Made by a program: the position numbers and the translations under genes. This document shows positions 2,187 to 63,973 of a stretch of DNA of 64,000 nt, piece after piece. The stretch lies in assembly GCA_003612405.1 (NCBI GenBank), contig RAYR01000021.1:1-64000 (forward strand), read 5' to 3'. The DNA comes from a bacterium 0.1xD8-71 (GTDB taxonomy: Bacteria > Bacillota > Clostridia > Lachnospirales > Lachnospiraceae). Within the stretch, counting starts at the first letter, position 1, and the number at the start of each line of letters is the position of its first letter. The notes under the pieces were generated by a model that did not search any database, was not told the DNA's origin, and saw only the letters and a list, made by a program, of their open reading frames with translations.

Positions 2187-3182
2187 ATGAAATTCCAATC
2201 CCACATCCCCAAAACCAAGCATACACTTATATTTCTATCAATATTCCTACTTGCATTAGCAATAGGCATCTCAATTCCATCAATAAAGGTTTATGCCACG
2301 GATGGTAACGCAGACGAAGGTGAATCCGATCAAGCCAGTGGTGAATATTCTGGTGGCCCCTCATATGCAAAGACTGGTTGGATAATGTACATAGTAGATA
2401 AAAATGGTACACCAGTTTCCGATGCAGTTTACATTTCCTGTGGTGGTGAACCACAAGGCATAAGATTTTTAACAACTCGCCTAGGTGGTCTAAATCCCCG
2501 TCAAGTAGCAGGACCGGTTCCATGGGTATCAGTTATTGGTGCTGATGGAGCCCCATTTGATAATGATCAAGATTTCAAAGGCATAGATATAAAGGACTGG
2601 CTGTTGGAGGATGATGGAGCAGGCACCAAGAACGTGTTTAACGTGGTTTCTGACTATTGGAGTGAGGATAAAGCCATAGCCATGGCAAAAAACAACCATT
2701 CCCTAATCCTAGAACCTTTCTACTGGATGACAATAGGCGGTCTGACAATATGCGCTACTGATATGAACTGGGGAATAGTATTGTCAACTGCGTACGGGGG
2801 AGGAAACTACGGTCCTCAACCCTTTACCCTTTTCACGAACACAATATTTCCACAGTGTGCAAGGTTTCAATACCCACAATTTGGTTTACAGACTAGCCCA
2901 AAATATGGTAAAGTCACCAATGCAGAAATGGTAACATACGCACTGGGAATTGAATCAATCACACCAAAAAATAGTGCCATACATACATACTGGGAGGTAT
3001 CCCCTGGCAACCCAGAGCCACGTATCCCCAATAAAACAGGAACATGTAACATCGTAAAGGGTTATTATAAAGAGAATCTCACTACAGGAGCAAAACAATC
3101 TATAGGAGTTTATTATGAATTAGGGGTAACAAGTAACATCATAGTAAGTGGCGAACCCACCTTTGAGTTAGTGGAGTGTTAA
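2187..3182 (+). CDS. Exported protein of the element, unknown function
   Basis: 331 aa with a clear signal peptide: basic N terminus, hydrophobic core at residues about 13-32 and a likely cleavage after VYA (residue 37). The mature protein starts with an acidic low-complexity stretch (DGNADEGESDQ) and continues as a Gly/Pro/aromatic-rich, probably beta-rich domain with few Cys. No sortase motif, no second membrane segment and no catalytic motif is seen. The start has an AAAGGCAGG ribosome-binding site. Its place just before Rep suggests an element surface function such as mating contact or exclusion, but that is inferred from position only. The family was not recognised. The protein may be a shortened form of a longer surface protein, since it ends without an anchoring domain. 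Confidence 0.65.
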   Translation: MKFQSHIPKTKHTLIFLSIFLLALAIGISIPSIKVYATDGNADEGESDQASGEYSGGPSYAKTGWIMYIVDKNGTPVSDAVYISCGGEPQGIRFLTTRLGGLNPRQVAGPVPWVSVIGADGAPFDNDQDFKGIDIKDWLLEDDGAGTKNVFNVVSDYWSEDKAIAMAKNNHSLILEPFYWMTIGGLTICATDMNWGIVLSTAYGGGNYGPQPFTLFTNTIFPQCARFQYPQFGLQTSPKYGKVTNAEMVTYALGIESITPKNSAIHTYWEVSPGNPEPRIPNKTGTCNIVKGYYKENLTTGAKQSIGVYYELGVTSNIIVSGEPTFELVEC

Positions 3183-3350
3183 TATTTTAATCGTCCAAAA
3201 CGTATTATTCAAAAATTAAATCATACCCCGTCAAATATCCCATCAAAAAGTTTCGTCAAAATTACCATATTGATTTTGGAATAACGCCTGTTTAGCTTTT
3301 CCCAACGCATCGGGCACAAGTTTACATAACAATAAAATCCGTCCAAATTC

Positions 3351-3386
3351 TTCTGCCATTCTGCCAATGGACGGCAGGATTTTTTT
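3351..3386 (+). terminator. Hairpin with T tract ahead of rep
   Basis: TTCTGCC (3351-3357) pairs with GGCAGGA (3373-3379) and is followed by seven T. A competing small hairpin CCATT/AATGG sits inside the loop. It lies 33 bases before the rep start, so it could terminate the upstream unit or attenuate rep. The stretch 3183-3350 holds no gene, only A/T-rich DNA with short GTCAAA repeats. Confidence 0.6.
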
Positions 3387-3419
3387 GTGCTACCCTACCC
3401 CAAAAGGGAGGGGACAAGA

Positions 3420-4358
3420 ATGGGCGTGGAATACATCGAAGGCGGATTCAAACTAAAAATCGGAAGAAGGCGGACGCAAGTAACGACATATGAGAATATG
3501 CCGCTACAAACGTCAAGCCCCATAAAAAAGGATAAGCAAAAGGAAATCAAACGAAACATTCCAAGCGACTATGCGAAATTTAACTATTATAATCGAATGA
3601 AAAAAAGGCGGCAGGAAATCCGCGAAATCTGCTGGAATAATTTCGATTTGCCCGATGTGGTAATGCTAACACTTACCTTTGACCAGAAAGGCAATGTAGA
3701 CAAGAACTTTACACAGCTTGAAGACGCACATCGAGAGTTTAAGAAGTTTATTCAGCGTGTAAACAGTCACTATGAGAATTTCCAATATCTTACAACATTT
3801 AGTAGACAAAGCAACGGAAATTGGCACTACCATGTAATGTGCAATTTCCAACATAGCATTGCCAATAAAGAAATTACGAAGCTTTGGAAGAACGGGATTA
3901 CTTATGTCTCTTATATAAATACACGAGAAAAGTACAATAGTGCGGTTCAGTATCTCACTCATAATATGGATGAATCAGCAGACGCATTAAAGGGGAAACA
4001 TGGGTATCTTTGTTCGCGGTCGGTTGAGCGGGATATCAAACTTGTTTCATGGAGAGCAGAGCAATCTGATGAGTTTGAGGAAGCGTTTCAAAAAGTGAAA
4101 CAGGAAAAGCATACAATTTTGTACGAGACCAGAAACCCGTTAGGAATCAAGGGAACCCGCGTAAACGAGGAGACAGGGGAGGCTTTCGAGGTGCATCTTC
4201 AAGACAGGGAACTCACTCCGGCACTAGAGTATGCGGGCTATGAGAAATGGGAAAGCATTTACACCCATCTGACATCTTCAGCGGATTTTTCAAACAAATT
4301 TAAGACGCTCAAGCCCGCCACACTCCGCCCTAAAAAATTCAAGCGGACTAATTCGTAA
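3420..4358 (+). CDS. HUH-type rolling-circle replication initiator (G2P/ORF2-like Rep)
   Basis: 312 aa. The start at 3420 follows a strong GGGAGGGG site; an earlier in-frame start at 3387 overlaps the terminator tail. The HUH endonuclease core is visible: motif 1 strand LTLTF (residues 83-87), motif 2 WHYHV with the metal-binding HYH (136-138), and a Tyr-bearing helix (QYLTHNM, candidate nucleophile Y178). Single-Tyr Reps of this kind nick one strand at a double-strand origin and become covalently attached to it. Its presence beside a serine recombinase suggests that the excised element replicates as a circle. The C terminus (about 230-312) is basic and may bind DNA. The family name rests on motif recognition; the nicking site was not identified. 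Confidence 0.8.
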   Translation: MGVEYIEGGFKLKIGRRRTQVTTYENMPLQTSSPIKKDKQKEIKRNIPSDYAKFNYYNRMKKRRQEIREICWNNFDLPDVVMLTLTFDQKGNVDKNFTQLEDAHREFKKFIQRVNSHYENFQYLTTFSRQSNGNWHYHVMCNFQHSIANKEITKLWKNGITYVSYINTREKYNSAVQYLTHNMDESADALKGKHGYLCSRSVERDIKLVSWRAEQSDEFEEAFQKVKQEKHTILYETRNPLGIKGTRVNEETGEAFEVHLQDRELTPALEYAGYEKWESIYTHLTSSADFSNKFKTLKPATLRPKKFKRTNS

Positions 4359-6053: not shown

Positions 6054-7724
6054 ATGCCTAAAAAAGTGAGAACCTTGTTGAGAGTATCATCAAAGCAACA
6101 GTTACATGATGACGACATACCCATGCAGAGGGCGGAGGCGAAGCAGTACATAGCCAGGCGCGATGACTGGGAGTTTGACAGGGAGTATATTGAAAAAGCG
6201 GTATCGGCATACAAGAACAATGTGGAGGAACGGGAAGTTTTGCAGGAAATACTGTCGGATGCCCGTGACCATCAGTTTGATGTTCTGCTCACCTATATGT
6301 CGGACAGGATCGGCAGGCAGGAAGAATACAGCTTCTATGTCGCCACACTGAATCAGCTAGGCATAGAGGTCTGGACAATCAAGGATGGTCAGTTAAAAAC
6401 AGAGGAACATATAGACAAACTGTTAAACTATATCCGTTTCTGGCAGAACGAGGGGGAGAGCAAAAAGACAAGTATGCGTGTGAAAGATACACAGAAAGAG
6501 TTGGTAAAGTCTGGAAAGTTTGTGGGTGGAAAAGCGCCATACGGCTATCGGTTAGTCCCTTCCGGCATGGTCAGCAATCACGGGAGACTGCTCAAGAAAC
6601 TTGAGATTGTGGAAGAAAATGCACGGGTAGTCAGATTGATATACAGTCTGGCAGTCAATAAAGGCATGGGATATGAGAAAATAGCGAATGAGTTAAATGC
6701 GCGAAACATTCCGGCGATTACGACAGACAAGTGGAAAGCAGGAACCATAAGAAGTATCTTGACAAACCCTGTCTATATGGGCTATCTGGCAATAAACAGG
6801 AGAATCAACCATAACGGGTTTATCAGATTAGACAGGAAGGACTGGATTTATTCAGAGGAACAGATACCGGAACTTGTCATTGTTTCGCAGCAGACATGGG
6901 AGAAAGCGCAGGAAATCAGAGAAGCCCGAAAAAATAAAATCAATACCTCGAAACAGATATCCGCTAAGGAGTATAAAGAGCAGTACAATGTGCCGTTTTC
7001 TACAAAAGGGAAACTTGCCTTGATTGGTCTTGCCACTTGTGGATATTGCGGGAAACGCTTAAAGAACGGGAGTTATTGCAACCACTGGACGACAAAGGCG
7101 GGAGAAAAGAAAATATCCTACGCGGGCAGATATGTATGCCCGTCAAAATGTGAAAAGCGCAGCAGTTATTCGCAGAATTATCTGGAGGGGATCGTGTTTG
7201 GGGTGGTTGAAACTTATATGGAGCATCTGAGATCCATAGATATCACGGAAGAAATAGAAAAAATGCAAAGTCAGCAAAGACAGGGCATAGAGAAGGAACT
7301 GGGAACCATTCATAAAAAACAACAAACCTTACAAACAGATATCCGAACACTGGAAGAAAAGATACCAGAAGCAATCAGAGGGGAATATTATTTCAGTGCC
7401 GAGAAACTTTCTGCCATGATCAAGGAAAAGGAACAGGAAATGGTGGCGTTAGACAAAGAAGCGGAACAGGCAAAGAACAGGCTGTCACAGGTGGTAAATC
7501 AAAATAGCGATTTGGAGAAGTTTATCACCATGGTGCCAAATTGGAAGGAGGAATTTCAAAATGCAGATACGCAGACCAAAAAGATGTTGCTGTCTGCCCT
7601 CATTGACCAGATAGAGGTAAAAAACGATGATATCAACATCAAATTTAGGATACGACTGGAGGACTTTGTATTACTTGAAAGTATTGGTTTACCTACCACT
7701 CCGTGTATACCCTGTTCAGGGTAA
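6054..7724 (+). CDS. Large serine recombinase (integrase/excisionase of the element)
   Basis: 556 aa. The start at 6054 has GGAGG at correct spacing; ATG 6048 is too close. The resolvase-type N-terminal catalytic domain carries LLRVSSKQQ with the nucleophile Ser (S12) and the conserved DRIGR Arg motif. A recombinase domain follows (about residues 160-270), then a zinc ribbon with C329, C332, C362 and C366, and a long coiled coil (about 390-490) of the kind that controls the direction of recombination. Length and order match large serine integrases, which join attP to attB through a 2-bp crossover. The gene is at the end of the element, and its last codons overlap the disrupted chromosomal gene by 32 bases, so its natural C terminus is set by the insertion junction. 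Confidence 0.92.
   Translation: MPKKVRTLLRVSSKQQLHDDDIPMQRAEAKQYIARRDDWEFDREYIEKAVSAYKNNVEEREVLQEILSDARDHQFDVLLTYMSDRIGRQEEYSFYVATLNQLGIEVWTIKDGQLKTEEHIDKLLNYIRFWQNEGESKKTSMRVKDTQKELVKSGKFVGGKAPYGYRLVPSGMVSNHGRLLKKLEIVEENARVVRLIYSLAVNKGMGYEKIANELNARNIPAITTDKWKAGTIRSILTNPVYMGYLAINRRINHNGFIRLDRKDWIYSEEQIPELVIVSQQTWEKAQEIREARKNKINTSKQISAKEYKEQYNVPFSTKGKLALIGLATCGYCGKRLKNGSYCNHWTTKAGEKKISYAGRYVCPSKCEKRSSYSQNYLEGIVFGVVETYMEHLRSIDITEEIEKMQSQQRQGIEKELGTIHKKQQTLQTDIRTLEEKIPEAIRGEYYFSAEKLSAMIKEKEQEMVALDKEAEQAKNRLSQVVNQNSDLEKFITMVPNWKEEFQNADTQTKKMLLSALIDQIEVKNDDINIKFRIRLEDFVLLESIGLPTTPCIPCSG
7690..7720. other. Putative right attachment site (attR) of the element
   Basis: The minus-strand spore gene reads through codons for RVYTEW and stops at a TAG (7695-7693) that its homologues do not have as I remember them. 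Homologues continue with Tyr after Trp. The crossover therefore lies at or just left of 7695, and the attB half-site is in the GTATACACGGAGTGG region (revcomp of about 7697-7711). The exact core cannot be defined without the left junction. Confidence 0.55.
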
Positions 7725-8379
7725 AGGACATGATGGCCAGGGTATTGGCATAGATTGCATTTTCAGGCCAGGTGGCATAGATTTCCGAGGATACTACGTT
7801 CTTGATATAATCCCGGTAACGGACATAGTAATTACCGGCCGTGGAATCTGAGGGAACACCGTCGTGTACAATGATATATTCGGGGATGACGACACGACTT
7901 AAGACAATTTCGCCGGATTCGTCCATGGGTTTGATTTCATCTTCCGGAATCTTTGGCGGGTAATCACCGTAAAGTGTGTGATCCGGAATGGAGATGATTT
8001 CTTCTTCCTCCTGTGTCATCTCCGTGGGTGTCATTTCAATATTCTGGACGGCGGTTACATCCGGCAGTACTTCCACGCCGGATACAATGACAGGTTCATA
8101 TCCCGGTGCTGTGACGGACACGGTATATTCCGAGTAAGGCATGGGGGAGTTGGGAGTGAGACTGTACTGTAAGGGCGGCGTCTTTAAGTTGACGATATCG
8201 GTCTGCCCGGAGGAGTCTGTGGTCAGGGTTTCAACCGTACTGTCCGGTTCTCCGGTAAAGGAAATGTTGATAGATGCGTTTTGTATGGGGATTAATCCGA
8301 CATTGGCTGTGACATTAATCTGCAACCGGCCGGTGGTATCTTCGGCGTTTTGTGCACTTTTGAAAATGTTTTCTTCCAT
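7693..8379 (-). pseudogene. 5' part of a spore-type peptidoglycan-binding/cortex-lytic-like gene cut by the element
   Basis: 228 codons remain. The start at 8379 has GAGG six bases upstream on the minus strand. The visible part contains an N-terminal carboxypeptidase-regulatory-like beta domain (about residues 15-115, ending GYEPVIVSGVEVLP), an acidic linker, then PPKIPEDEI and a conserved block IPEYIIVHDGVP...YYVRYRDYIKNV...FTLNRVYTEW. I recognise this block from Clostridia peptidoglycan-binding proteins linked to spores; there it continues with EWYR and a long conserved region before a C-terminal peptidoglycan-binding domain. Here it stops right after Trp, where the serine-recombinase element begins. 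The remainder is predicted at the far end of the element. As it stands, the product lacks its C-terminal domains and is probably inactive. Confidence 0.75.
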
Positions 8380-8406
8380 TTGATACCTCATCAGTTCTCT
8401 TACCTT

Positions 8407-8415
8407 TAGGGTATG
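8407..8415 (-). promoter_or_regulatory. Possible mother-cell sigma factor -10 element (CATACCCTA)
   Basis: On the minus strand, CATACCCTA lies 28 bases before the start of the truncated spore gene and fits the CATAnnnTA pattern of sigma-K -10 elements (also close to sigma-E). The -35 element is not convincing, so this is tentative. It agrees with the sporulation assignment of the gene. Confidence 0.3.
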
Positions 8416-8424
8416 CAATTAAGG

Positions 8425-8454
8425 TTGCACATGCCACCTTATAAATGGTATACT
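8425..8454 (+). promoter_or_regulatory. Sigma-A promoter of the DUF5717 operon
   Basis: TTGCAC (8425-8430) and TATACT (8449-8454) with 18-bp spacing, ending 57 bases before the preferred start codon of the 1188-aa gene. It diverges from the truncated spore gene. Confidence 0.7.
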
Positions 8455-8511
8455 ATAACCAGTATGGTTAATTGTAAATTGTTATAAAATCCCAACATGG
8501 GGAGTGGAAAC

Positions 8512-11500
8512 GTGAGACAGGTAATTGAAGAAATCTTACAGGGCAAATTTAATGTTGATAACGGGTCTTTGGATTTTTCCTGCCCGCGCATTGAGTTGTC
8601 ACTCCATGCCGATACGGCCTGTGAGGGATTTTTTTTGGTATACGGCCCTAAGGGGCAGGTGACGGAGGGACATATAGTTTCCTCCGATCTTCGTATGGAA
8701 TGTGTTACCGAAATATTCAGCGGCAGTCAGGACGAGATCCTGTACCGGTTTGATGCCCGTGGAATGGAAGTAGGTGAGGAAGTCAGGGGAAGCTTCCATG
8801 TGATATCCAACCACGGGGAGTATTATCTTCCCTTCACGGTATCTATTGTGCCCGAGGTGATCGATTCCAGTCTGGGAAGCATCAAGAATCTGTTCCACTT
8901 CACCAATCTGGCAAAGAGCTGTTGGGAGGAGGCTGTAAAGCTTTTTTATTCCAGAGAGTTCAAGGAGGTGTTCACCGGTAATGACAGGCAGCACTATGCC
9001 GCCTATAAGGGGCTGTCCGCAGTGCCGGGCAATGAACATAATATGGAGGAATTTCTCTTAGAAATCAACAAGAAAAAGGCAGTGGAGTATATCCCTGAAG
9101 AGAAGGAAATCAAGATAGAGGATCCGTTGGAAACCACCCGTTATGCACTGGTGGTCAATCGAAACGGCTGGGGGTACACCCGTCTGAAGATTGCCGTGGA
9201 AGGGGAATTTCTACAGGTGAAAGAGGATGTGGTGTCAGATTCCGCCTTTCTTGGGAATATTTACCGGGTTTATTATTATGTGCAGCATGAGAAGCTTCAT
9301 GCCGGTAACAATTACGGCGCCATCCTGTTGATGCAGGAGCATGAGACAATCCGGATACCGGTTACGGTGGTCAGACATCCGGCGGGCAGAAAGCTTTTGG
9401 GATTGCAACGTGAAAAGAAGCGGCTCACGGTGGAAGTGATGGCTTATTATCAGGCTTTCCGGTTAAAGAAGATAGGGACAAAGACCTGGCTGACAGAGAC
9501 CAATAAGCTGCTGGGACGCATGGCGGAGATAGATGACAAGGATATCGCGGTGAAACTTTTCACGGCCCAGATGCTTCTCACGGAGGAGCGCTATAATGAG
9601 GGCAGATGGCTGATTGAGAAACAAAAAGAACAGGTGGAGATGAGAAAGGATACGGATCCGGCATTGTGGTGCTATTATCTGTATCTTACCACCCTGTATG
9701 GCAAGGACGATCCGTATGTAGATGAAGTGGCAGCCGTGGTGGCAGGAGTCTATGAGCGGAACCGGGGCAACTGGCGGATCGCCTGGCTTCTCCTGTACTT
9801 GTCGGAGGAGTATGTAAAGAGTCCTTCCCGCAAGTGGGTGCTTTTGGAGGAGCTGTTTGGTCATCATTGTACATCCCCGGTGATTTACATAGAAGCGTGG
9901 AATATTATCCGCGCGAATCCGGCGATGCTTATGAAGCTGGATCTGTTTGAACAGCAGATATTGCATTATGCGGTCAGGAATGACCTTTTAAAAGAGGATG
10001 TGATTCGGCAGATCGTATATCTGGCGCAGCATCAGCGCGGATATTCGGACAGTCTGTATAAAATCCTTGCGGGGTGTTATGAGAAGATGCCGGACAATGA
10101 AATATTGCAGGCAATCTGTACTCTGTTGATAAAAGGCAACTGCCGGGGAGAAAAGTATTTTGCCTGGTATCGTGCCGGCGTGGAGGAAAATCTGCGGATT
10201 ACGAGACTCTATGAATATTATATGATGTCGATTTCCCTGGAGTATGACGGGCCGCTGCCGAAGATGGTACTGATGTATTTTGCCTATCAGAGCGATTTAC
10301 ACTATGAGATTACAGCCTATCTCTATGCTTATGTTTACAGGCACAGGGAAGAACTGCCGGATGTTTATGTAAACTATACGGCGGCTATGGAACGTTTTGT
10401 CTTAGAACAGATCAAGCGGGGCAGAGTGAATAAAGATCTGGCCTATCTCTACCGTCATATCATCAGCCTGCCCATGATTGATGAGGAGAGTGCGCAGGCG
10501 TTGGCAGCGCTTCTCTTCGTGCGGGAGATCCGGGTGGATTCGGATAAGCTGAGAGAGGTGATTTTGTCCTATCCTTATCGAACAGATCAGAAGAGTTATC
10601 CGATTACGGGCGGCAGGGCACTGGTGCCTGTCTATGATTCCAACTGTAAGATTCTTCTGGGAGACGGGGAGGGGAACCGCTATACAGTGAGCATGGATTA
10701 TCGTGTGGAGACGCTGCTTAGTCCGGTAAGGCTGGCACTGATGATTTCGCCTTTTGTGCGCAATCACCTGGGATATGCCATATATATGTGTTATGAGTAC
10801 CAGACTACCTTTGTCATACAGGAGGACAATGCGGACTTATTTGCCCTGCTGGCGCAGTCGGAGCGGATTGAGGAAGATACCAGACGGACGATTCGCAGGA
10901 TGTTGGTTGACTTCTATTATGAAAAGGACAGGATGCGGGAACTGGATGATTATCTGCTTTCCCTGCATCCGGAAGAGGTACAGCCCAGAGACCGTAAGGA
11001 GATTGTGCGCTGTATGGTGAACCGGGGGATGTACGAGGAAGCCTATGAGTGGGTGTGCCGCTACGGTCCATACAGTATGGATGCCAAGACCCTTCTGAAA
11101 CTGTGCAGCAGGCTTTTGGATTTTCAGGAGATTGAAGATGACCCCCTGATGAAAGGTGTACTCTTCTATGTGCTGCAAAAAGGCAAATATGATGATAATG
11201 TACTGCATTATCTGGTGCGTTATTTTAATGGCAGCATCAAGGAAATGCGGGATGTGTGGAAAACAGCCGAAGCCTTTGGTGTGGATACTTACGGCTTGTG
11301 TGAACGGATGATTGTGCAGATGCTTTATACCGGCGCTCATGTGGGAGAAAAGATTGAAATCTTCCGTTCTTATAATAGAAGCGGCGGCAATGAGCGGCTG
11401 CGGGCGGCCTTTTTATCCCAGTGCTGCTATGATTATGCGATAGGGGAACAGATTACGGAATCTTATGTGTTTGAGAGTGTCTTGCAGCTGTATCTGGAAC

Positions 11501-56100: not shown

Positions 56101-57141
56101 ATGAAAATATGTTTAAAGGCACTATCGGCAGCGCTAAGCAGCCTGATACTTGTTAATTTCTTATGCATGTTTTATTATTCAGCACCAGGTGATATATACA
56201 GGGACAACGGAGCAACAAAATCAATTAGGAGACCGAGTTCATATTATATTAATTCTACAGAAGGATTTGGTATTAATTATTTTGATAAAAATGGTTACAA
56301 CAATATGGCTGGTGAATTAGAAAGTCCATATGTTCTGATAATGGGGTCTTCTCATATGGAGGCAACATACGTTTCACAGGAAAAGAATACACCGGCAGTA
56401 TTGAATTCTTTGTTAGGAGGAACGAATCAGAAGCTTAGAGTCTATAATATTGCACATGCCAATAATCCATTGCCCGATCTTGTAAGAGGTTTTCAGGCTG
56501 GCATTGGGGAATTCCCGAATTCTTGTGCAGTCATTATGGAAATATCATCAACGTCTTTCTCAGTAACCGAATTACAAGATAGTTTGCAGCAGACAATTTA
56601 TGATCAAACTTCTGACGGGGCGTATTTATCCCAACATCTTACAGGTAAACAGCAATTAAGAAGCTCACTTGTTGGTTGGATGCCTTTTGCCAAATTTGTA
56701 TTAAACAGACAGTTGACGTCTATGGATCTGGGAATCGGGAATCCATTTGGCTTACTGAAAATAAATAATAAAGCAGAAGAACAATTTGATAGGGATGCCT
56801 ATGCAACTGTTTTAGATGATGTTTTTTCCATGATTCGTAATGAATATAGTGGGACTATTGTTGTTTTATATCATCCTGAAGTGGTGTTAGTGGGGGAAGA
56901 GATGATAATAGTCCGTAACGAAAATACATATGATATTTTTCGATATGCCTGTGAGGACAATGATATTTTTTTCCTTGATACAGGAGACGCCTTTTTAAAG
57001 GCGTATGAAGATAATTATACAGTACCATATGGTTTTAATAATACTTCACCAGGCAGCGGACATCTAAATGCAGATGGACATAGAATAGTTGCGTGTGAGC
57101 TTTATCAGGCTTTAAGCGAATTGCAGGAGGATTGGAAATGA
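56101..57141 (+). CDS. SGNH-hydrolase-like secreted/anchored protein (346 aa)
   Basis: An N-terminal hydrophobic segment (about residues 8-28) acts as signal anchor. The SGNH/AlgX-like fold is suggested by LIMGSSHMEATY (candidate Ser at 83-84), an internal Asn segment (NIAHANNPLP) and GHLNADGHRI (H321 and H327 as candidates for the His). Such proteins often work with MBOAT acyltransferases in O-acetylation of polysaccharides, and the MBOAT gene overlaps its stop by 4 bases. The Asp of the last motif is not obvious, so activity is not certain. Confidence 0.75.
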   Translation: MKICLKALSAALSSLILVNFLCMFYYSAPGDIYRDNGATKSIRRPSSYYINSTEGFGINYFDKNGYNNMAGELESPYVLIMGSSHMEATYVSQEKNTPAVLNSLLGGTNQKLRVYNIAHANNPLPDLVRGFQAGIGEFPNSCAVIMEISSTSFSVTELQDSLQQTIYDQTSDGAYLSQHLTGKQQLRSSLVGWMPFAKFVLNRQLTSMDLGIGNPFGLLKINNKAEEQFDRDAYATVLDDVFSMIRNEYSGTIVVLYHPEVVLVGEEMIIVRNENTYDIFRYACEDNDIFFLDTGDAFLKAYEDNYTVPYGFNNTSPGSGHLNADGHRIVACELYQALSELQEDWK

Positions 57142-58546
57142 ATTTTTTATCTTCTGCCTTTATTATTTTTATGATAGTACTTCTTGCTTTGCTTTGTATA
57201 ACAAAACAAGAGGAAACACGCCAAATTATATTATTAATTGCAAGTTATTTGTTTTATGCTTATGCAGATTGGCGCTTTTTAGGAATATTATTGATCCAGA
57301 CGACAATTGCATATTGCACAGCGAGAATCATTGATCATAATGAAAGAAAAGGAAAGGGGACGGGGGTAACACTGGCTATAGGAATAGTGAGTTGTATTGG
57401 AATATTATCAATATTCAAATATAGTAATCACGTTGTTCCATGCTTTATAAAAAATAATGGGGGGGAGCAAAGATTGCTTTACCGCTAGGAATATCATTTT
57501 ATACCTTTCAAGCGCTTAGTTATATTATTAATATATACCAGAAGCGACAGCCTGTAGAAAAATTATTTGTGAAAGTGGCTTTATATATCGGTTTTTTTCC
57601 ACAGATTACTTCGGGTCCGATTGTAAAAGCACATGATTTTTTCGTGCAATTGGAGCAGATGCATCCGATGAAAAAGCAGAATATTATTGCAGGTGCACAG
57701 ATTTTTCTGATGGGAATTGTTAAGAAAACCGTAATAGCAGATCGTTTGGGCAGGTCTGTGGATGCTGTATACGCTGCACCGACGGCCTATAGTGGAATAT
57801 CAATTTTGCTTGCGACAATCGCGTATACGATGCAGATATATGCCGACTTTTCCGGCTATTCAGATATGGCAATAGGAGTTGCAAAATGTATAGGCTATGA
57901 TTTGGGGAAAAATTTTAATATGCCCTATATTGCACATAACCCATCTGAGTTTTGGAGGCGTTGGCATATTAGTTTATCAAGTTGGTTTAGGGAGTATGTT
58001 TATTTCCCGCTTGGAGGGAGTAGAGGAAAATTAATAAAAACTTGCAGGAATCTGTTTCTGGTAATGTTTTTAAGCGGTATATGGCATGGGACGGGAATCA
58101 CATTTATTTTATGGGGATTATATCACGGAATTGGAGTGGCTGCTCATCGAGTATTTGCGGAAGTGGTTAATAGACAGAGATGGCAGATAAAGTCTGTTTT
58201 GGGCCAAAAGATAGCCGGAGGGGTCTCTATCTTGTGCACTCTGGTGTTTGTCAATATTGGCTGGATTTTATTTCGTTCAGACACAGTAGATACTATAGGG
58301 ATTATATTACATAGAATATTTACCAGGGCTAATGGTGTTGAATATATTTATGTCTTTACAATATTGTTTATGATTCTTTTTATCATAGTGAATATTTATA
58401 CTCTTATCAAGAAGCAAGGTAATGCAGAGTATATTTTTCTTGACTATAATAAATTTTCGTCTTGGTTTATTTTGTGGACAGTTATTTTTCTTATTTTAGT
58501 ATTTTTCTATCCGGGAGAAGCAGAGTTTATTTATGGAAAATTTTAA
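57138..58546 (+). pseudogene. MBOAT O-acyltransferase, out of frame at a poly-G tract (phase-off or broken)
   Basis: Start at 57138 with AGGAGG. The first part (to about 57465) encodes the usual MBOAT N terminus (LIASYLFYAYADWRF, SIFKYSN). After the 7-G run the frame runs into a stop at 57486-57488. The second part continues in another frame from IALPLGISFYTFQALSYI to FGKF-type end at 58546, including the catalytic His segment WHGTGITFILWGLYHG. One extra G (8) would join both parts into one protein of about 470 aa. MBOAT enzymes acetylate surface polysaccharides together with SGNH partners such as the one encoded upstream. Confidence 0.85.
57459..57465 (+). repeat. Poly-G tract of 7 at the MBOAT frameshift
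   Basis: Seven G at exactly the position where the two MBOAT reading frames separate. Eight or five G would restore the frame. Confidence 0.9.
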
Positions 58547-58656
58547 TACAGATACCATGATTAAATTCAGAAGGAGTGATTTCTAGTAAGAAAGAGCTAT
58601 CATATTGTTATAGAGCGGCGCTTGCAGATTACCGTTTTTATTTATATAAAAAATAG

Positions 58657-58685
58657 TTGACAAATAGGAAATGATTCTATAAACT
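58657..58685 (+). promoter_or_regulatory. Promoter and conserved leader of Rpn copy A
   Basis: TTGACA (58657-58662), 17-bp spacer, TAAACT (58680-58685). The leader (about 58692-58834) has two adjacent hairpins, AATGTAC/GTACATT (58710-58728) and GACAG/CTGTC (58731-58743). Nearly the same leader precedes copy B. Nothing else is seen in 58547-58656. Confidence 0.55.
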
Positions 58686-59803
58686 ATACCTATCAAAGAA
58701 ATTCTACCAAATGTACACTTCGTACATTCAGACAGTTTCTGTCAGATTTTCTGATGATCCAATCAAATATGGCAGGAACGGGAATGACGAAAGAAGCGCA
58801 TAACGTGTCCTGCAACAACAAGGGAGGGCAATTTATGCAGAGTACAAAAGGAAAAAGGCCCAAAGAGCGGCCGGTCACAGTAAGTTTTAAAACATGGTAC
58901 GACCGGAGGTTCCGGGCGGGACACTTTAGATGGCTGGGACGCCGGAAAGTCCAGAGACAGATCAAGGACAGACTTTTTCGGTTTTTATTTGAAAAGGACA
59001 AAGAAGCCCTGCTGGCATTATACAATGCCCTGAACGGCACAGACTATCAGGATACCGCCGACTTAAGAGTGGTGACGATAGAAAACGTCGTGTATGTAGT
59101 GATGAAAAATGACCTAGCGTTTGTGATTGCAGGGACGCTAAATCTCTATGAACATCAGAGCACCTACAATTCCAATATGCCGGTGCGGTTCCTGATCTAT
59201 CTGGCGGAAGAGTACCAGAAGCTGCTCAATAAAGCAGAAAGGTATATCTACGGATCAAAGCAGGTCATGTTACCAACCCCTCAATGCATCGTGTTCTATA
59301 ACGGAGAAAAAGAGATGCCGGAGGAGAAGATCTTAAGCCTGTCGGATGCCTTTGAGAACCAGAAGGTAAAGGCAAGCGTGGAATTAAAGGTGCGGATGCT
59401 GAACATCAACCATGGGAAGAACCGGGAACTGATGGAGAAGTGCCATGTACTGGAGGAATATGCCCGATTTGTGGAGACAGCCAGACAGTATGTGGCGGAG
59501 AGCAGTGCGTATCAGGAGGCATTGAATCTGGCAGTTGACTACTGCATAGACCATGGTATTTTATCAGAATTTTTACAAAGATATCGGGCGGAGGTGTTAG
59601 GGATGCTGTTGGAAGAGTTCGATGTGGATAAGTATGAGAGAACCCTTAGAGAGGAAGGGCGAGAAGAGGGATGGGAAGAAGGGCAGGAACAGATGGCCAG
59701 ATTAAATGAGAAGCTGTTGGAGTTAAACCGGCTTGAAGATTTGAAGCGCATGTCAAAAGACGCAGATTATCGGAAACAACTGTTTCGGGAGTTCGGATTA
59801 TAG
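58684..59803 (+). repeat. Direct repeat copy A (leader plus Rpn gene)
   Basis: Highly similar to 62977-63973, which has the same orientation. Similarity begins in the promoter region, spans the leader and most of the gene, and fades in the last 40 codons. The pair encloses the 925-aa fusion gene. Confidence 0.85.
58835..59803 (+). CDS. Rpn-family / PD-(D/E)XK nuclease family transposase-like protein (322 aa)
   Basis: The start at 58835 follows AGGGAGG; earlier in-frame ATG codons (58754) lie in the leader. The N terminus is basic. The nuclease core is suggested by FLFEKDKEALLALYNALNG, then D93 in MKNDLAFVI and E106-x-Q108 in LYEHQSTYN, with the family segments RYIYGSKQVMLPTPQ and IVFYNGEKEMPE. 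A C-terminal charged coiled coil follows (EEGREEGWEEGQEQ). Rpn proteins promote RecA-independent recombination, and the family is often labelled putative transposase. Intact in this copy. Confidence 0.85.
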   Translation: MQSTKGKRPKERPVTVSFKTWYDRRFRAGHFRWLGRRKVQRQIKDRLFRFLFEKDKEALLALYNALNGTDYQDTADLRVVTIENVVYVVMKNDLAFVIAGTLNLYEHQSTYNSNMPVRFLIYLAEEYQKLLNKAERYIYGSKQVMLPTPQCIVFYNGEKEMPEEKILSLSDAFENQKVKASVELKVRMLNINHGKNRELMEKCHVLEEYARFVETARQYVAESSAYQEALNLAVDYCIDHGILSEFLQRYRAEVLGMLLEEFDVDKYERTLREEGREEGWEEGQEQMARLNEKLLELNRLEDLKRMSKDADYRKQLFREFGL

Positions 59804-59839
59804 AGAACGATTAAACTAAATACAATGCAATCATTATTG

Positions 59840-59898
59840 AAAATCCCAATATGGAGTAAGCTTTTTTATAAAAGGCGTATTTCATATTGGGATTTTTT
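59840..59898 (+). terminator. Terminator after Rpn copy A
   Basis: A perfect 14-bp stem AAAATCCCAATATG (59840-59853) with CATATTGGGATTTT (59883-59896) and a T-rich end; loop of 29 nt. Confidence 0.8.
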
Positions 59899-60054
59899 AT
59901 GTGGAAAATTGAATTGTGGAAAAAATTATAAAAGCTCAATGAAATATGTAATAGATTAGTGACTTGTAATCTATAATATGGTAAAATATTTTTATAAAAA
60001 TAGTTGTTATATAGAGAGCTGCTTTATACCATCAGAAAAGGGAATCAAGGCACT

Positions 60055-62832
60055 ATGGAAAGCGGAAATATAAATGAATTCAGATTAAGAGATTATGTAC
60101 AGGTTTTTGAGAAAACTTTGAATTATATGGCGGGGGCTATTGTTGCGGCCATGATTGCCGGCATTTGTCATATTGTTTCTGATCCGAATATGCATCTGAC
60201 AATAGATACGATGTTTAGAATGATTCAGGATCTGCATAAGAATCCACAAGAATTTTTCTGCCTTATAACATCCGTATTATCTACTCTGCCATATTATTTT
60301 TATTATTGCCTGAAAGACAATACAGGGTGGAACGCATGCAATGGGAAAAGAGATAACAAGGGACTGAGAAAAATATATGTTTTATATGAATTTGGCATAA
60401 TGTGTCTTTTATATTTATTGATGAAGGACGACATGTCTTTTTCTGCTTCTAAACTTCTTATCTCTGTTATTAACATAGTTTTAACGTTTACATATCTCTG
60501 TTTTATGATAAAGGACAGAAGAAAAGAGGAGCGGATTGGTTATTTCCTTGTCACGATAGCCCTGTCAATCATTATATTTGGTGGATTGTGTTGGAACAGC
60601 TGGTGTAATCTGATACAAAACAGGAGTAATCAAAATTATTCAATCATATTATTGGTAATACTCTTCTGGCTCAACTCTGCTTTTAATCTGGGATTTCTTG
60701 TCAGATCAGACTCCAGTGATGAATCGGGAATTATTTCCAACCGCAAGAAGATTATGATTCCCATTATTACTATGTCTATCTATACGGTTACGATTATTTA
60801 TTGTTTCTATTATTCAGGTGGCGACTGGAAGATTATGGTCACAACAGCAGTCTATGTGACAGTATATGAAGTGGTTATATCGTTATTAAAGTGTAAAAGA
60901 GAGATAGTCAAGATGTTCTGGTGTGCTGTTTCCTTTGTATTATTTGTGTTTGTAATGCCCGCAGTAATCTGGCAGAGCAATAAACTGTCAGATGAATTGG
61001 CGTTGAACTGGCTGATTTTAGTAGGTGTCAGTATCTATATGGCAGCAATAAAATATTGGGGGTATATTATTAAATATCTGTTTTCCCAAAAAGAGAGAAG
61101 CCAGTCAACAGTAAAAACAATGAATATGATGATCTGGTTTCGGAATAGTATCCTTGGGAGCATGGTTTTTATTGCGAGTGTCCTTTGGATCAGTAAGAAA
61201 TATTATATGATGCTTTTGGTGATAACAGCATGTTCTATAGTATCGGAAATATTCATCAGCTACACGTTTGACAGACAGATAAAGAATACAGATAAAGCGT
61301 ATTTGGCAGGCAGAATCATGGAATTTATTTCTATCACAGCACCTATATGCACTTTTATTATAATAAATGTATTTGAACTTCCATTTGTACAAAATGGCAG
61401 AGCTCATGCAAAACTGCCGGTAGAAATTATCTTACCAATAGATGGAGTGATGCTGGTTGCAAATATAGGATATGTTTTGTATCAGTGGGATAAGGGAGGC
61501 ATAAAAAAGGATAAGGGTGACAGAAATGAGGACATAGAAATATCCAAAAAGGCCATATTTTCCACTGTCTATAAATATATAAAAAGATTATTCTACCATA
61601 TACAGGATGCTTTACCAAATCGAAGTATAGTCAATTTATGTGGAATAGTTGGAATATCATGTGCCTATATGGTAGTGCAATTCTTTGTAGAAATAAGATT
61701 TTTTCCTGTTTTGGATATGGGGATATGGGGATTTGCATTAATAAAAGGGATTTTTATTGCAGATTGGTGCATTTTGTCAAAGCGACTGACGGATTATTAT
61801 ATTAAAAAAGTAAAATTGGGGAGGCATGTGATGGAATTTAAGGGTTTTTTCGAGGAGAGTTGGAAAGAATGTATGGGTACACTGGATGAATTTAAAGAAA
61901 GTAATGCAAAGCAGTTCTTCTTGGGAAGCCGTATCAGGCCAATTTTATTTTTTATGGGAAGCAGCTATGGCAGGTATGAGAGCCTTAAGGAGGAAGAGTA
62001 TCGTCAAATAGCAAAGGCCGCCTGTAGTCTGGAATTAATTCATAAAGCATCGATTGTATTGGATGATTATCTGGATGGTGATAGGATGCGTAATGGAGAA
62101 GAATCGGTTTATGAACAATATAATGAGGAAATCAATTCTTTATTTTTAGTGGTAAATGCTATGCTGGCGAAGGCGCAGATAAACTTTATGGAATGTAAGG
62201 ATAGTTATAAATGCAGTGAAAGTATTATGCTGGAGAATTCCCGTAGATTATCTGAAATAATTTTTGATCTGAGCAGGGGATGTTATAAAGAGCTGGCCCG
62301 GGGAGCATATGAGAATCAGAGTGAAGAAGAAATCAGGACGATTATTTCGCTTGAAACGGTATCTCTGATTCAGGGAAGCGTAGAGTTGGGATACAGAAGC
62401 TTTCATGATGGATATGGGGATAGAGATTATGAAAGTCTGGTACGTTTGGGAGAGGCATTTGGATATATTTTTCAGTATCTTAATGATTTGGAGCCTTTCA
62501 GTCAGAGAAAATCATATGAGGATAGTAAGGGAACAATAGATTATTTTGATCATGGAAAGAAAAATGTAGCTGTTTTATGCTTGTATGGGAAAGTTACTGA
62601 TGAGGAAAAGAGAAAGATTAATGTGGAAAATTATGAAGAAATATTACAGTTCTATCAGGATTATAATGTGGAAAAAGATATTATAGATAAGGTGAAGATT
62701 GAAATGGAGAAGATAAAAGAATGTTTATCAGACTTGGAGCGGGGAAATGTGAACTGGGTCGGAGCTTTTAGGGAACTGTTTAACATGGCACTGGAGAAAA
62801 AGGGTTGGGGAAAGAAAGTTCCATTGCTGTAG
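60055..62832 (+). CDS. Polytopic membrane protein fused to an isoprenyl diphosphate synthase-like domain (925 aa)
   Basis: ATG at 60055 with a weak AAGG site; an upstream TTG (60004) is less likely. Residues about 20-590 contain roughly fourteen membrane helices in a pattern I do not recognise. The C-terminal about 310 residues resemble trans-polyprenyl synthases: the first Asp-rich motif is intact (DDYLDGDRMRNGEE, D670, D671, D674), preceded by ELIHKASIVL. The second Asp-rich motif is degenerate (YLNDLEPFS, N810-D811-L-E-P), yet a basic segment (HGKKNVAVLCLYG) follows. Degenerate second motifs are known from enzymes with altered chain or acceptor use, such as ComQ-type peptide prenyltransferases. 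Its function here, for example making or attaching an isoprenoid at the membrane, is inference. Own terminator; flanked by Rpn repeats. Confidence 0.72.
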   Translation: MESGNINEFRLRDYVQVFEKTLNYMAGAIVAAMIAGICHIVSDPNMHLTIDTMFRMIQDLHKNPQEFFCLITSVLSTLPYYFYYCLKDNTGWNACNGKRDNKGLRKIYVLYEFGIMCLLYLLMKDDMSFSASKLLISVINIVLTFTYLCFMIKDRRKEERIGYFLVTIALSIIIFGGLCWNSWCNLIQNRSNQNYSIILLVILFWLNSAFNLGFLVRSDSSDESGIISNRKKIMIPIITMSIYTVTIIYCFYYSGGDWKIMVTTAVYVTVYEVVISLLKCKREIVKMFWCAVSFVLFVFVMPAVIWQSNKLSDELALNWLILVGVSIYMAAIKYWGYIIKYLFSQKERSQSTVKTMNMMIWFRNSILGSMVFIASVLWISKKYYMMLLVITACSIVSEIFISYTFDRQIKNTDKAYLAGRIMEFISITAPICTFIIINVFELPFVQNGRAHAKLPVEIILPIDGVMLVANIGYVLYQWDKGGIKKDKGDRNEDIEISKKAIFSTVYKYIKRLFYHIQDALPNRSIVNLCGIVGISCAYMVVQFFVEIRFFPVLDMGIWGFALIKGIFIADWCILSKRLTDYYIKKVKLGRHVMEFKGFFEESWKECMGTLDEFKESNAKQFFLGSRIRPILFFMGSSYGRYESLKEEEYRQIAKAACSLELIHKASIVLDDYLDGDRMRNGEESVYEQYNEEINSLFLVVNAMLAKAQINFMECKDSYKCSESIMLENSRRLSEIIFDLSRGCYKELARGAYENQSEEEIRTIISLETVSLIQGSVELGYRSFHDGYGDRDYESLVRLGEAFGYIFQYLNDLEPFSQRKSYEDSKGTIDYFDHGKKNVAVLCLYGKVTDEEKRKINVENYEEILQFYQDYNVEKDIIDKVKIEMEKIKECLSDLERGNVNWVGAFRELFNMALEKKGWGKKVPLL

Positions 62833-62852
62833 ATAAATAAGTCTTTTTAACA

Positions 62853-62896
62853 AATAGCTGTCAGTGTGCTTGCTTAAAGCAGTTGATGGCTATTTT
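62853..62896 (+). terminator. Terminator-like hairpin after the fusion gene
   Basis: AATAGCTGTCA (62853-62863) pairs with TGATGGCTATT (62884-62894) with two wobbles, an inner TGCTT/AAGCA stem and a TTTT end. The rest of 62897-62949 is A/T-rich with no gene. Confidence 0.65.
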
Positions 62897-62949
62897 GCTA
62901 TTTAATTGTATTATTGAACAATTAATATTAAAATTTCGCCCAAAAATAA

Positions 62950-62978
62950 TTGACAAACAATAAAACATCTTATATCCT
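62950..62978 (+). promoter_or_regulatory. Promoter of Rpn copy B
   Basis: TTGACA (62950-62955), 17-bp spacer, TATCCT (62973-62978), followed by the same two hairpins as in copy A (AATGTAC/GTACATT at 63005-63023). Confidence 0.5.
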
Positions 62979-63973
62979 ATACCTATCAAAGAAATTCTAC
63001 CCAAAATGTACATTTCGTACATTCAGACAGTTTCTGTCAGATTTTCTAATGATCCAATCAAATATGGCAGGAACGGGAATGACGAAAGAAGCGCATAACG
63101 TGTCCTGCTATCAACAAGGGAGGACAGCTTATGCAGAGTACAAAAGGAAGAAAAAGGCCCAAAGAGCTGCCAGTCACAGTAAGCTTTAAAACATGGTACG
63201 ACCGGAGGTTCCGGGCGGGACGCTTCGGATGGCTGGGACGCTGGAAAGTCCAGAGACAGATTAAGGACAGGTTTTTCCGGTTCTTATTTGAAAAGGACAA
63301 AGAAGCCCTGCTGGCATTATAACATCAGAGCACCTACAATCCCAACATGCCGGTGCGGTTCCTGATCTATCTGGCGGAAGAGTATCAGAAATTGCTCAAT
63401 AAGGCAGAAAGGTATATCTACGGATCAAAGCAGGTCATGCTGCCAACCCCTCAATGCATCGTGTTCTATAACGGAGAAAAAGAGATGCCGGAGGAGGAAA
63501 TCCTAAGCCTGTCGGATGCTTTTGAGAACCAGAAAGTAAAGGCAAGCGTAGAACTGAAAGTGCGGATGCTGAACATCAACTATGGGAAGAACCGGGAACT
63601 GATGGAGAAGTGCCATGTATTGGAGGAATATGCCCCGTTTGTGGAGACAGCCAGACAGTATGTGGCGGAGAGCAGAGACTATCAGGAAACACTGAACCTG
63701 GCGATCGACTACTGCATAGATCATGATGTTTTATCGGAGTTTTTACAAAGATATCGGGCGGAGGTGTTAGGGATGCTGTTGGAAGAGTTCGATGTGGATA
63801 AGTATGAGAGGACTATTAGAAAAGAAGGAATAGAAGAAGGGAATGAGCGAGGAACTGAATGTTCTTTTAAGCTGGTGCAGAAATTGCAAGAGCAAAATCG
63901 TATGGAAGATTTGGACCGAGCGGTGAGGGAACCTGACTATCGGAAGAAATTGTTCGGGGAGTTTGGGCTGTAG
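62977..63973 (+). repeat. Direct repeat copy B (leader plus disrupted Rpn gene)
   Basis: Matches 58684-59803 apart from a 129-bp deletion, scattered substitutions and a diverged 3' tail. Confidence 0.85.
63131..63973 (+). pseudogene. Disrupted Rpn-family nuclease gene (copy B)
   Basis: Starts with AGGGAGG and ATG at 63131. It follows copy A until LLAL, then hits a TAA at 63320-63322. Relative to copy A, the bases corresponding to 59022-59150 are missing. This 129-bp (43-codon) deletion does not shift the frame but creates the TAA at its junction. Beyond it the frame HQSTYNPNMPVR continues open to 63973. The deletion removes the part with D93 and E106 of copy A, so even readthrough would give an inactive nuclease. 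Short matching bases (TAT) at the edges fit slippage or microhomology. Confidence 0.85.

Follow-up and report, generated by a model that had tools for sequence, protein, structure and literature searches.

What does a bacterium do with an isoprenyl-synthase-like domain built onto the end of a large membrane protein? The question is raised by one gene, hereafter the fusion gene, in a stretch of 64,000 nucleotides (the window: positions 1 to 64,000 of contig RAYR01000021.1, assembly GCA_003612405.1) from the Lachnospiraceae bacterium 0.1xD8-71. An initial annotation had described a prenyl-synthase-type domain fused to a membrane domain, with an intact first DDxxD motif and a second that reads NDLEP. 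The fusion is borne out by a match to the polyprenyl synthetase family PF00348 (E 5.7e-19) following about 583 residues of membrane helices, and both motifs are confirmed in the sequence and in an alignment. The explanation that we favour, tentatively and from sequence comparison, is a membrane-tethered, ComQ-like prenyl transferase of a separate group of enzymes, the ND clade, which would use an acceptor other than isopentenyl diphosphate (IPP).

The reading frame is open on the forward strand from a TTG at 60004 to 62832, giving 942 amino acids (aa). The ATG at 60055, which gives 925 aa, is the better start because AAGGGA and AAGG lie upstream of it and the in-frame Met of a homologue from a second genome of the genus (G300) aligns there. 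In both proteins a simple hydropathy scan places 14-15 membrane helices within the first ~590-600 residues. This N-terminal domain has no Pfam family above its cut-off in a search to E 10 (the best, AGMP_C, at E 0.026, is below cut-off) and no match among PDB sequences. In the 942-aa form, residues 641-871 match PF00348 with 68.8 bits, over the curated cut-off of 27, and NCBIfam has no equivalog for the fusion protein, every match being far below its cut-off. That the C-terminal domain might lack the prenyl-synthase fold had been named as a possible refutation; the family match speaks for the fold, which the AlphaFold model, made from a two-row alignment with a predicted local distance difference test score (pLDDT) of 36.6 and useless for comparison, does not confirm. 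The genome has just one other PF00348 gene, a 300-codon frame with canonical motifs on a different contig, so the housekeeping enzyme is not encoded by the fusion gene; the normal short-chain synthase lies at G000:C2:71719-72435.

The catalytic motifs place the C-terminal domain close to, and yet apart from, the canonical trans-isoprenyl diphosphate synthases. It belongs to the same Pfam family as IspA and geranylgeranyl diphosphate synthase (GGPPS) and has the same first aspartate motif, here DDYLDGDRMR. In contrast to these enzymes, it has replaced the GGKR lysine (by Ser), the KT lysine (by Glu) and the second DDxxD. The two lysines bind IPP and allylic diphosphates. The same pattern runs through the whole ND clade, most of whose members are stand-alone enzymes. 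The first motif, DDxxDxDxxR, is kept in all 16 ND rows of the alignment that have letters there, and the second is NDxE in 17/17, whereas it starts with DD in 15/15 canonical rows. All 15 canonical rows have the lysine of GGKRxRP, which none of the 15 ND rows with letters there retains; that of the KT pair, again constant in the 15 canonical rows, is Glu in 15 and Gln in two of the 17 ND rows. The ND clade stands apart with support of 100/100 in a 30-row tree, which compares 13 stand-alone and two fusion enzymes with 15 canonical synthases. Within the clade the tree does not distinguish between a fusion pair that is sister to the stand-alone enzymes and one that arose from among them, and it carries a program warning about long branches and uneven composition. 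The tree left out the fragments L032 and L041 as well as L005 and L015, whose chosen open reading frame (ORF) lacks the motifs; it also lacks L016 and L017 and four loci for which the filter passed no ORF (L004, L007, L008 and L018). With a profile of the clade, the ND member among 147 Enterococcus-side genomes scored 397 bits and the next-best protein 86. The clade ranges over Lachnospiraceae and other Clostridia, Lactiplantibacillus, Enterococcus, Streptococcus and Saccharibacillus.

An intact first aspartate-rich motif (FARM) followed by a degenerate second one is what characterises ComQ, which prenylates a tryptophan of ComX in Bacillus. According to the accessible text of a review (PMC5331326), ComQ needs the FARM, its pseudo second motif (pseudo-SARM) must be NDxxx or GDxxx, and a change of the Asn to Asp cuts activity drastically. 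PalQ of Paenibacillus is described, in the accessible part of PMC10853753, as a second enzyme of the ComQ kind. The window protein shares with both the isoprenyl-synthase superfamily and the first motif, and its NDLEP resembles the reduced second motif of ComQ. ComQ and PalQ differ from it in acting on a peptide, and the text available for them describes no membrane fusion, whereas the window protein has a membrane domain of 583 residues and no convincing peptide gene. The likeness to ComQ is one of motifs; the tree compares the ND clade with canonical synthases. A ComQ-type second motif with a possibly altered acceptor had also been suggested in the initial annotation, and since ComQ needs NDxxx to prenylate tryptophan this is a good working model. 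All 17 rows of the clade have ND.

On the reading that we favour, the C-terminal domain would bind a prenyl diphosphate (geranyl, GPP; farnesyl, FPP; or geranylgeranyl, GGPP) and Mg through the intact first motif. From the replacement of the GGKR lysine, the KT lysine and the second motif we infer that IPP would not serve as its acceptor. The prenyl group might instead go to a different molecule, with a small isoprenoid or a prenylated lipid as the product, and the N-terminal domain could present, export or sense the hydrophobic acceptor or product. Prenyl transfer to a non-IPP acceptor is favoured because of the ComQ-type NDxxx together with the missing lysines. The same residues bear on the main rival, by which the protein would be a terpene synthase derived from an isoprenyl diphosphate synthase (IDS), ionising FPP or GGPP and releasing a terpene or terpene alcohol, with no acceptor, for the membrane domain to export or perceive. 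We consider it unlikely. Insect terpene synthases of IDS origin are recognised among prenyl synthases by their replaced IPP-binding residues, in what is accessible of PMC12376265, and like the window protein they keep the first motif; FAD-oxidoreductase and methyltransferase genes beside some relatives would also suit a terpene pathway. These insect enzymes are eukaryotic. Against the rival, the sandfly enzyme of that report retains a conserved second motif, and NDxxx is what ComQ requires for prenyl transfer. The motif NDLEP also lacks the Ser and Glu of the NSE triad of terpene synthases. A still less likely view takes the domain for a catalytically dead, isoprenoid-binding sensor attached to a membrane protein. 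The replacement of several active-site residues would fit, but the first motif, with its distal Asp and Arg, would be expected to decay in a dead enzyme and is instead found in every ND row with letters there, and ComQ is active with the same change in its second motif (PMC5331326, accessible text).

The fusion is no sequencing or annotation artefact, a possibility raised at the outset: a congeneric genome has the same fusion and a third genome a C-terminal remnant of it. The G300 protein has 926 aa and is 46% identical to the window protein from end to end (925/926 residues). The full fusion occurs in these two of the 77 genomes of the genus, and two others (G334 and G303) match in the enzyme domain only. 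Among 299 genomes of the family, its own included, there was no further full-length match, and the 19 other matches cover the C-terminal domain alone (E 3e-10 to 9e-4). The N-terminal domain by itself, searched in 397 family genomes, found its own gene and one chance-like match with an internal stop (E 5e-4). A scan of one genome per species gave 17 loci: the G300 fusion, a remnant in UBA7050, 13 stand-alone enzymes (L037 and L041 being taken as the loci of G334 and G303) and two archaeal synthases of canonical type. The UBA7050 remnant (L032, 8032-8604) has 52% identity across domain residues 147-339, with nothing of the N-terminal part seen, and lies by eye at the end of a glycan-type gene cluster, after an acyltransferase. 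No relative was found in viral contigs; one apparent phage match, MT839172.1, was rejected as a canonical synthase, not of ND type, beside a polA-like gene (by eye). Judged by titles and abstract openings among the matches listed in a full-text literature search, the fusion and the modules described below are undescribed, which is weak evidence, most subscription papers being outside its scope.

How the stand-alone ND enzymes are organised says more about the membrane connection. The set comprises 15 loci: the 13 of the one-per-species scan, a Streptococcus salivarius plasmid (L051) and one found later (L075). A Streptococcus equinus plasmid locus (L050), 99.7% identical to L051 over the module region, was excluded from the counts. 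In 15/15 the enzyme gene is convergent with a gene of one membrane-protein family of 329-426 aa. Since a hydropathy scan gives these partners 5-8 helices each, the label of a seven-transmembrane (7TM) protein comes from a structure model: the predicted fold of the L033 partner best matches insect gustatory and odorant receptors, over ~302/337 residues, with weak Foldseek E-values and root-mean-square deviations of 5.3-6.2. This likeness to the 7TM ion-channel superfamily, suggestive only, concerns the predicted fold of that one bacterial partner, which has no sequence match to the superfamily. Accessory genes occur in five of the 15, namely a methyltransferase in L035 and L039 and an FAD oxidoreductase in L036, L037 and L038. 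One module, L037, has two homologous partner genes (6790-7854 and 8964-10109), so the receptor-like gene can be duplicated. In L043 a TIR-domain gene (2946-4205; PF13676, E 7.9e-13) ends at the right arm (2927-2947) of the module. A partner profile run against a phylum sample of 398 genomes gave one match, which spans 96 positions (E 7.9e-5). The idea that the fused N-terminal domain corresponds to one or two copies of the stand-alone partner was considered and found no support in the profiles: there is no sequence similarity between them, the hhalign probability being at most 0.4% compared with 0.1-8.1% for unrelated control membrane proteins.

The stand-alone units look invertible. Inverted repeats bracket the enzyme/partner pair in 13/15; in the other two, L039 and L041, the contig ends inside the module, and in L034, L036 and L045 one arm is at or near a contig end. 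The arms (14 compared) have a core like GATAAT-N5-ATTATC, with variants. Exact repeats of at least 20 bases were present in all six real regions tested and in 0/240 order-1 shuffles. A tyrosine recombinase with PF00589 and PF02899, the XerC/D-type layout, lies beside or near ten of the 15 modules (L033, L035, L036, L038, L040, L041, L042, L044, L051 and L075; ~0.9 kb off in L041), and none was identified in L034, L037, L039, L043 or L045. Between their outer repeat ends, L051 (5849-7920) and L075 (3086-5160) are 90.3% identical and have opposite orientations relative to the adjoining recombinase match. The same change of sign is seen in L040/L044 and L036/L038, making three related module pairs in all. 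From this comparison of related loci the modules appear to flip. Several observations weigh against flipping or are neutral to it: a further L051 flank has its match in L075 across the module, which makes the surroundings non-collinear; no opposite orientation is seen in L036/L037, L035/L039 or L033/L042, with no recombinase identified in L037 and L039; and L050 is oriented like L051. The locus L075 came from a search with nothing but the partner profile, among 348 genomes of the class of the Enterococcus, and proved to carry the enzyme, the repeats and a recombinase. This was only a mild blind test because its close relative L051 was in the profile; the one further match in these genomes (E 5.5e-4) has stops inside.

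On Streptococcus salivarius megaplasmids, beside a recombinase and pezAT, the same site with the same repeat core holds alternative convergent gene pairs: an ND enzyme and its membrane partner (L051, 5849-7920), a hypothetical protein and a methyltransferase (L053, 4178-5944), or a serine hydroxymethyltransferase (SHMT)-like enzyme and an AAA-TPR protein (L054, 2459-6026). Alternative pairs at one plasmid site suggest swappable, invertible two-gene cassettes. Six proteins were queried against an anti-phage library, with nothing for the ND enzyme or the partner; there were weak matches of the fusion protein to PglX (E 0.005) and of the L054 AAA-TPR protein to mad8 (E 3.4e-4).

The stand-alone relatives, and they alone, share with PsrA-hsdS of pneumococcus and with invertons the PF00589 and PF02899 recombinase, the inverted repeats and the opposite orientations. 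They differ in that the apparent flipping unit is a convergent enzyme/membrane-protein pair, and the window fusion is outside any such unit: no inverted repeats bracket the fusion gene in the window or in G300 (none of 20 exact bases at a spacing of at least 1.5 kb in 59500-63400 or in L023), and its immediate neighbours in the window are Rpn-type gene copies. An alternative that we regard as improbable is a bacterial 'mating-type-like' switch between sender and receiver: the ND enzyme would make an isoprenoid signal and the membrane partner would perceive or conduct it, the recombinase flip in the stand-alone modules would favour either the enzyme or the 7TM receptor-like channel, and the window fusion would be a hard-wired version with both components in one protein.

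Taken together, the fusion and the constant presence of a membrane-protein partner beside the stand-alone enzymes suggest that the membrane is where the isoprenoid made or attached by an ND enzyme is handled. Against a membrane-tethered prenyl transferase weigh the model of the fusion, which at its pLDDT is too poor for use, and catalytic competence, which is assumed. The analogy between fusion and partner is one of gene linkage and fusion only, because the two membrane parts have no sequence similarity, and conservation is thin, with only two full-length fusions known here. Stand-alone enzyme and partner may, finally, be expressed in alternation and not together, which would weaken the idea of one machine.

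The surroundings of the fusion gene (Table 1) bear on two other proposals. It had been placed between recombination-prone repeats and next to a glycan locus. The flanking direct repeats are real, ~91% identical in two blocks and corresponding to two copies of an Rpn/Transposase_31-type gene. Glycan-type genes do lie upstream (mostly by eye), separated from the fusion gene by an Rpn-type gene and a hairpin. The fusion gene is AT-rich (G+C content 0.355; G+C at third codon positions, GC3, 0.36-0.37), like the upstream island (0.337), in which four ORFs have a GC3 of 0.23-0.33; five long ORFs earlier in the window have 0.54-0.59. A DltB-like protein of the membrane-bound O-acyltransferase (MBOAT) family may be split over two ORFs of the window, 57132-57488, with no Pfam match, and 57569-58546 (TIGR04091, 157 bits, below cut-off). 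The glycan-type genes here and before the UBA7050 remnant are what could favour the initial proposal of a special lipid carrier for the locus, which a membrane-anchored polyprenyl-diphosphate synthase would make. This we now hold to be very improbable and have set aside: residues constant in canonical synthases, the GGKRxRP lysine among them, are replaced; the 23.6-kb contig of the G300 homologue shows by eye no glycan locus, the gene lying between large repeat-rich surface-type genes and toxin-antitoxin-type genes; and the surroundings of the stand-alone relatives, also by eye, are varied.

A true ComQ-type enzyme, with a tryptophan in a small peptide or in the enzyme's own tail as its target, would account for the NDxxx motif, and peptide prenylation had been among the initial proposals; it now appears quite doubtful. 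A Trp stands eighth from the C-terminus in 3/3 fusion-type rows, within a KGW tail at which the 13 stand-alone rows of the same alignment have a gap; this tail might, speculatively, be a self-substrate. A scan of both gaps for small ORFs gave no convincing ComX-like gene and one weak candidate just upstream, a 31-codon ATG ORF (59978-60073) with Trp fifth from its end. This ORF overlaps the start of the fusion gene, has no ribosome site, has its ATG abutting a TATAAT-like sequence and has no counterpart at the same place in G300; it is probably due to chance. In L033, moreover, the enzyme and partner genes fill 7941-9970 between arms at 7899-7941 and 9947-9989, where a precursor gene would not fit. 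The ComP/ComA genes of a ComQ system do not adjoin the fusion gene, which has Rpn-type gene copies directly on both sides, and beside the modules no histidine kinase was noticed by eye, no dedicated search having been made. A search with PF05952 (ComX) in the own genome and five module genomes found no match and is uninformative because 14 control genomes, Bacillus subtilis included, were also silent.

Table 1. Features of the fusion gene and its flanks (positions in the window)
Feature	Position	Strand	Evidence
Upstream direct repeat, around and within an Rpn/Transposase_31-type gene (ORF 58754-59803)	58649..59671	+	blastn, ~91% to 62942-63842; PF04754, E 4.9e-5
Hairpin then T run, terminator-like, between Rpn-type gene and fusion gene	59840..59896		inverted repeat of 27 nt, 85%
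Fusion gene	60055..62832	+	ORF, translation, full-length alignment with the homologue
N-terminal membrane domain (residues 1-583) of no known family, with 14-15 helices predicted	60055..61803	+	hydropathy scans; no Pfam family above cut-off, no PDB sequence match
C-terminal isoprenyl-synthase-like domain, residues 584-925	61804..62829	+	PF00348; ND-clade alignment, tree
GSRIRP at the site of GGKRxRP, Lys replaced by Ser	61924..61941	+	alignment with 15 canonical synthase rows
Intact first Asp-rich motif, DDYLDGDRMRNG	62062..62097	+	sequence, alignment
ET where canonical synthases have the KT pair (Glu for Lys)	62353..62358	+	alignment
NDLEP, pseudo second Asp-rich motif	62482..62496	+	sequence, alignment
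C-terminal tail KGWGKKVPLL	62800..62829	+	alignment
Downstream direct repeat, Rpn-type copy with internal deletion	62942..63842	+	blastn

Prenyl transfer to acceptors other than IPP is found in few bacterial systems, and in this superfamily we met ComQ and PalQ. A membrane-tethered prenyl transferase of the kind favoured here would mean that the ND clade adds a membrane-linked branch to enzymes of the ComQ/PalQ type, and the fusion points to an enzyme and a membrane protein that act jointly. If the partner of the stand-alone enzymes were indeed a receptor-like channel, one inversion switch would serve both a chemoreceptor-like protein and an enzyme of isoprenoid metabolism, which would be a new bacterial division of labour.

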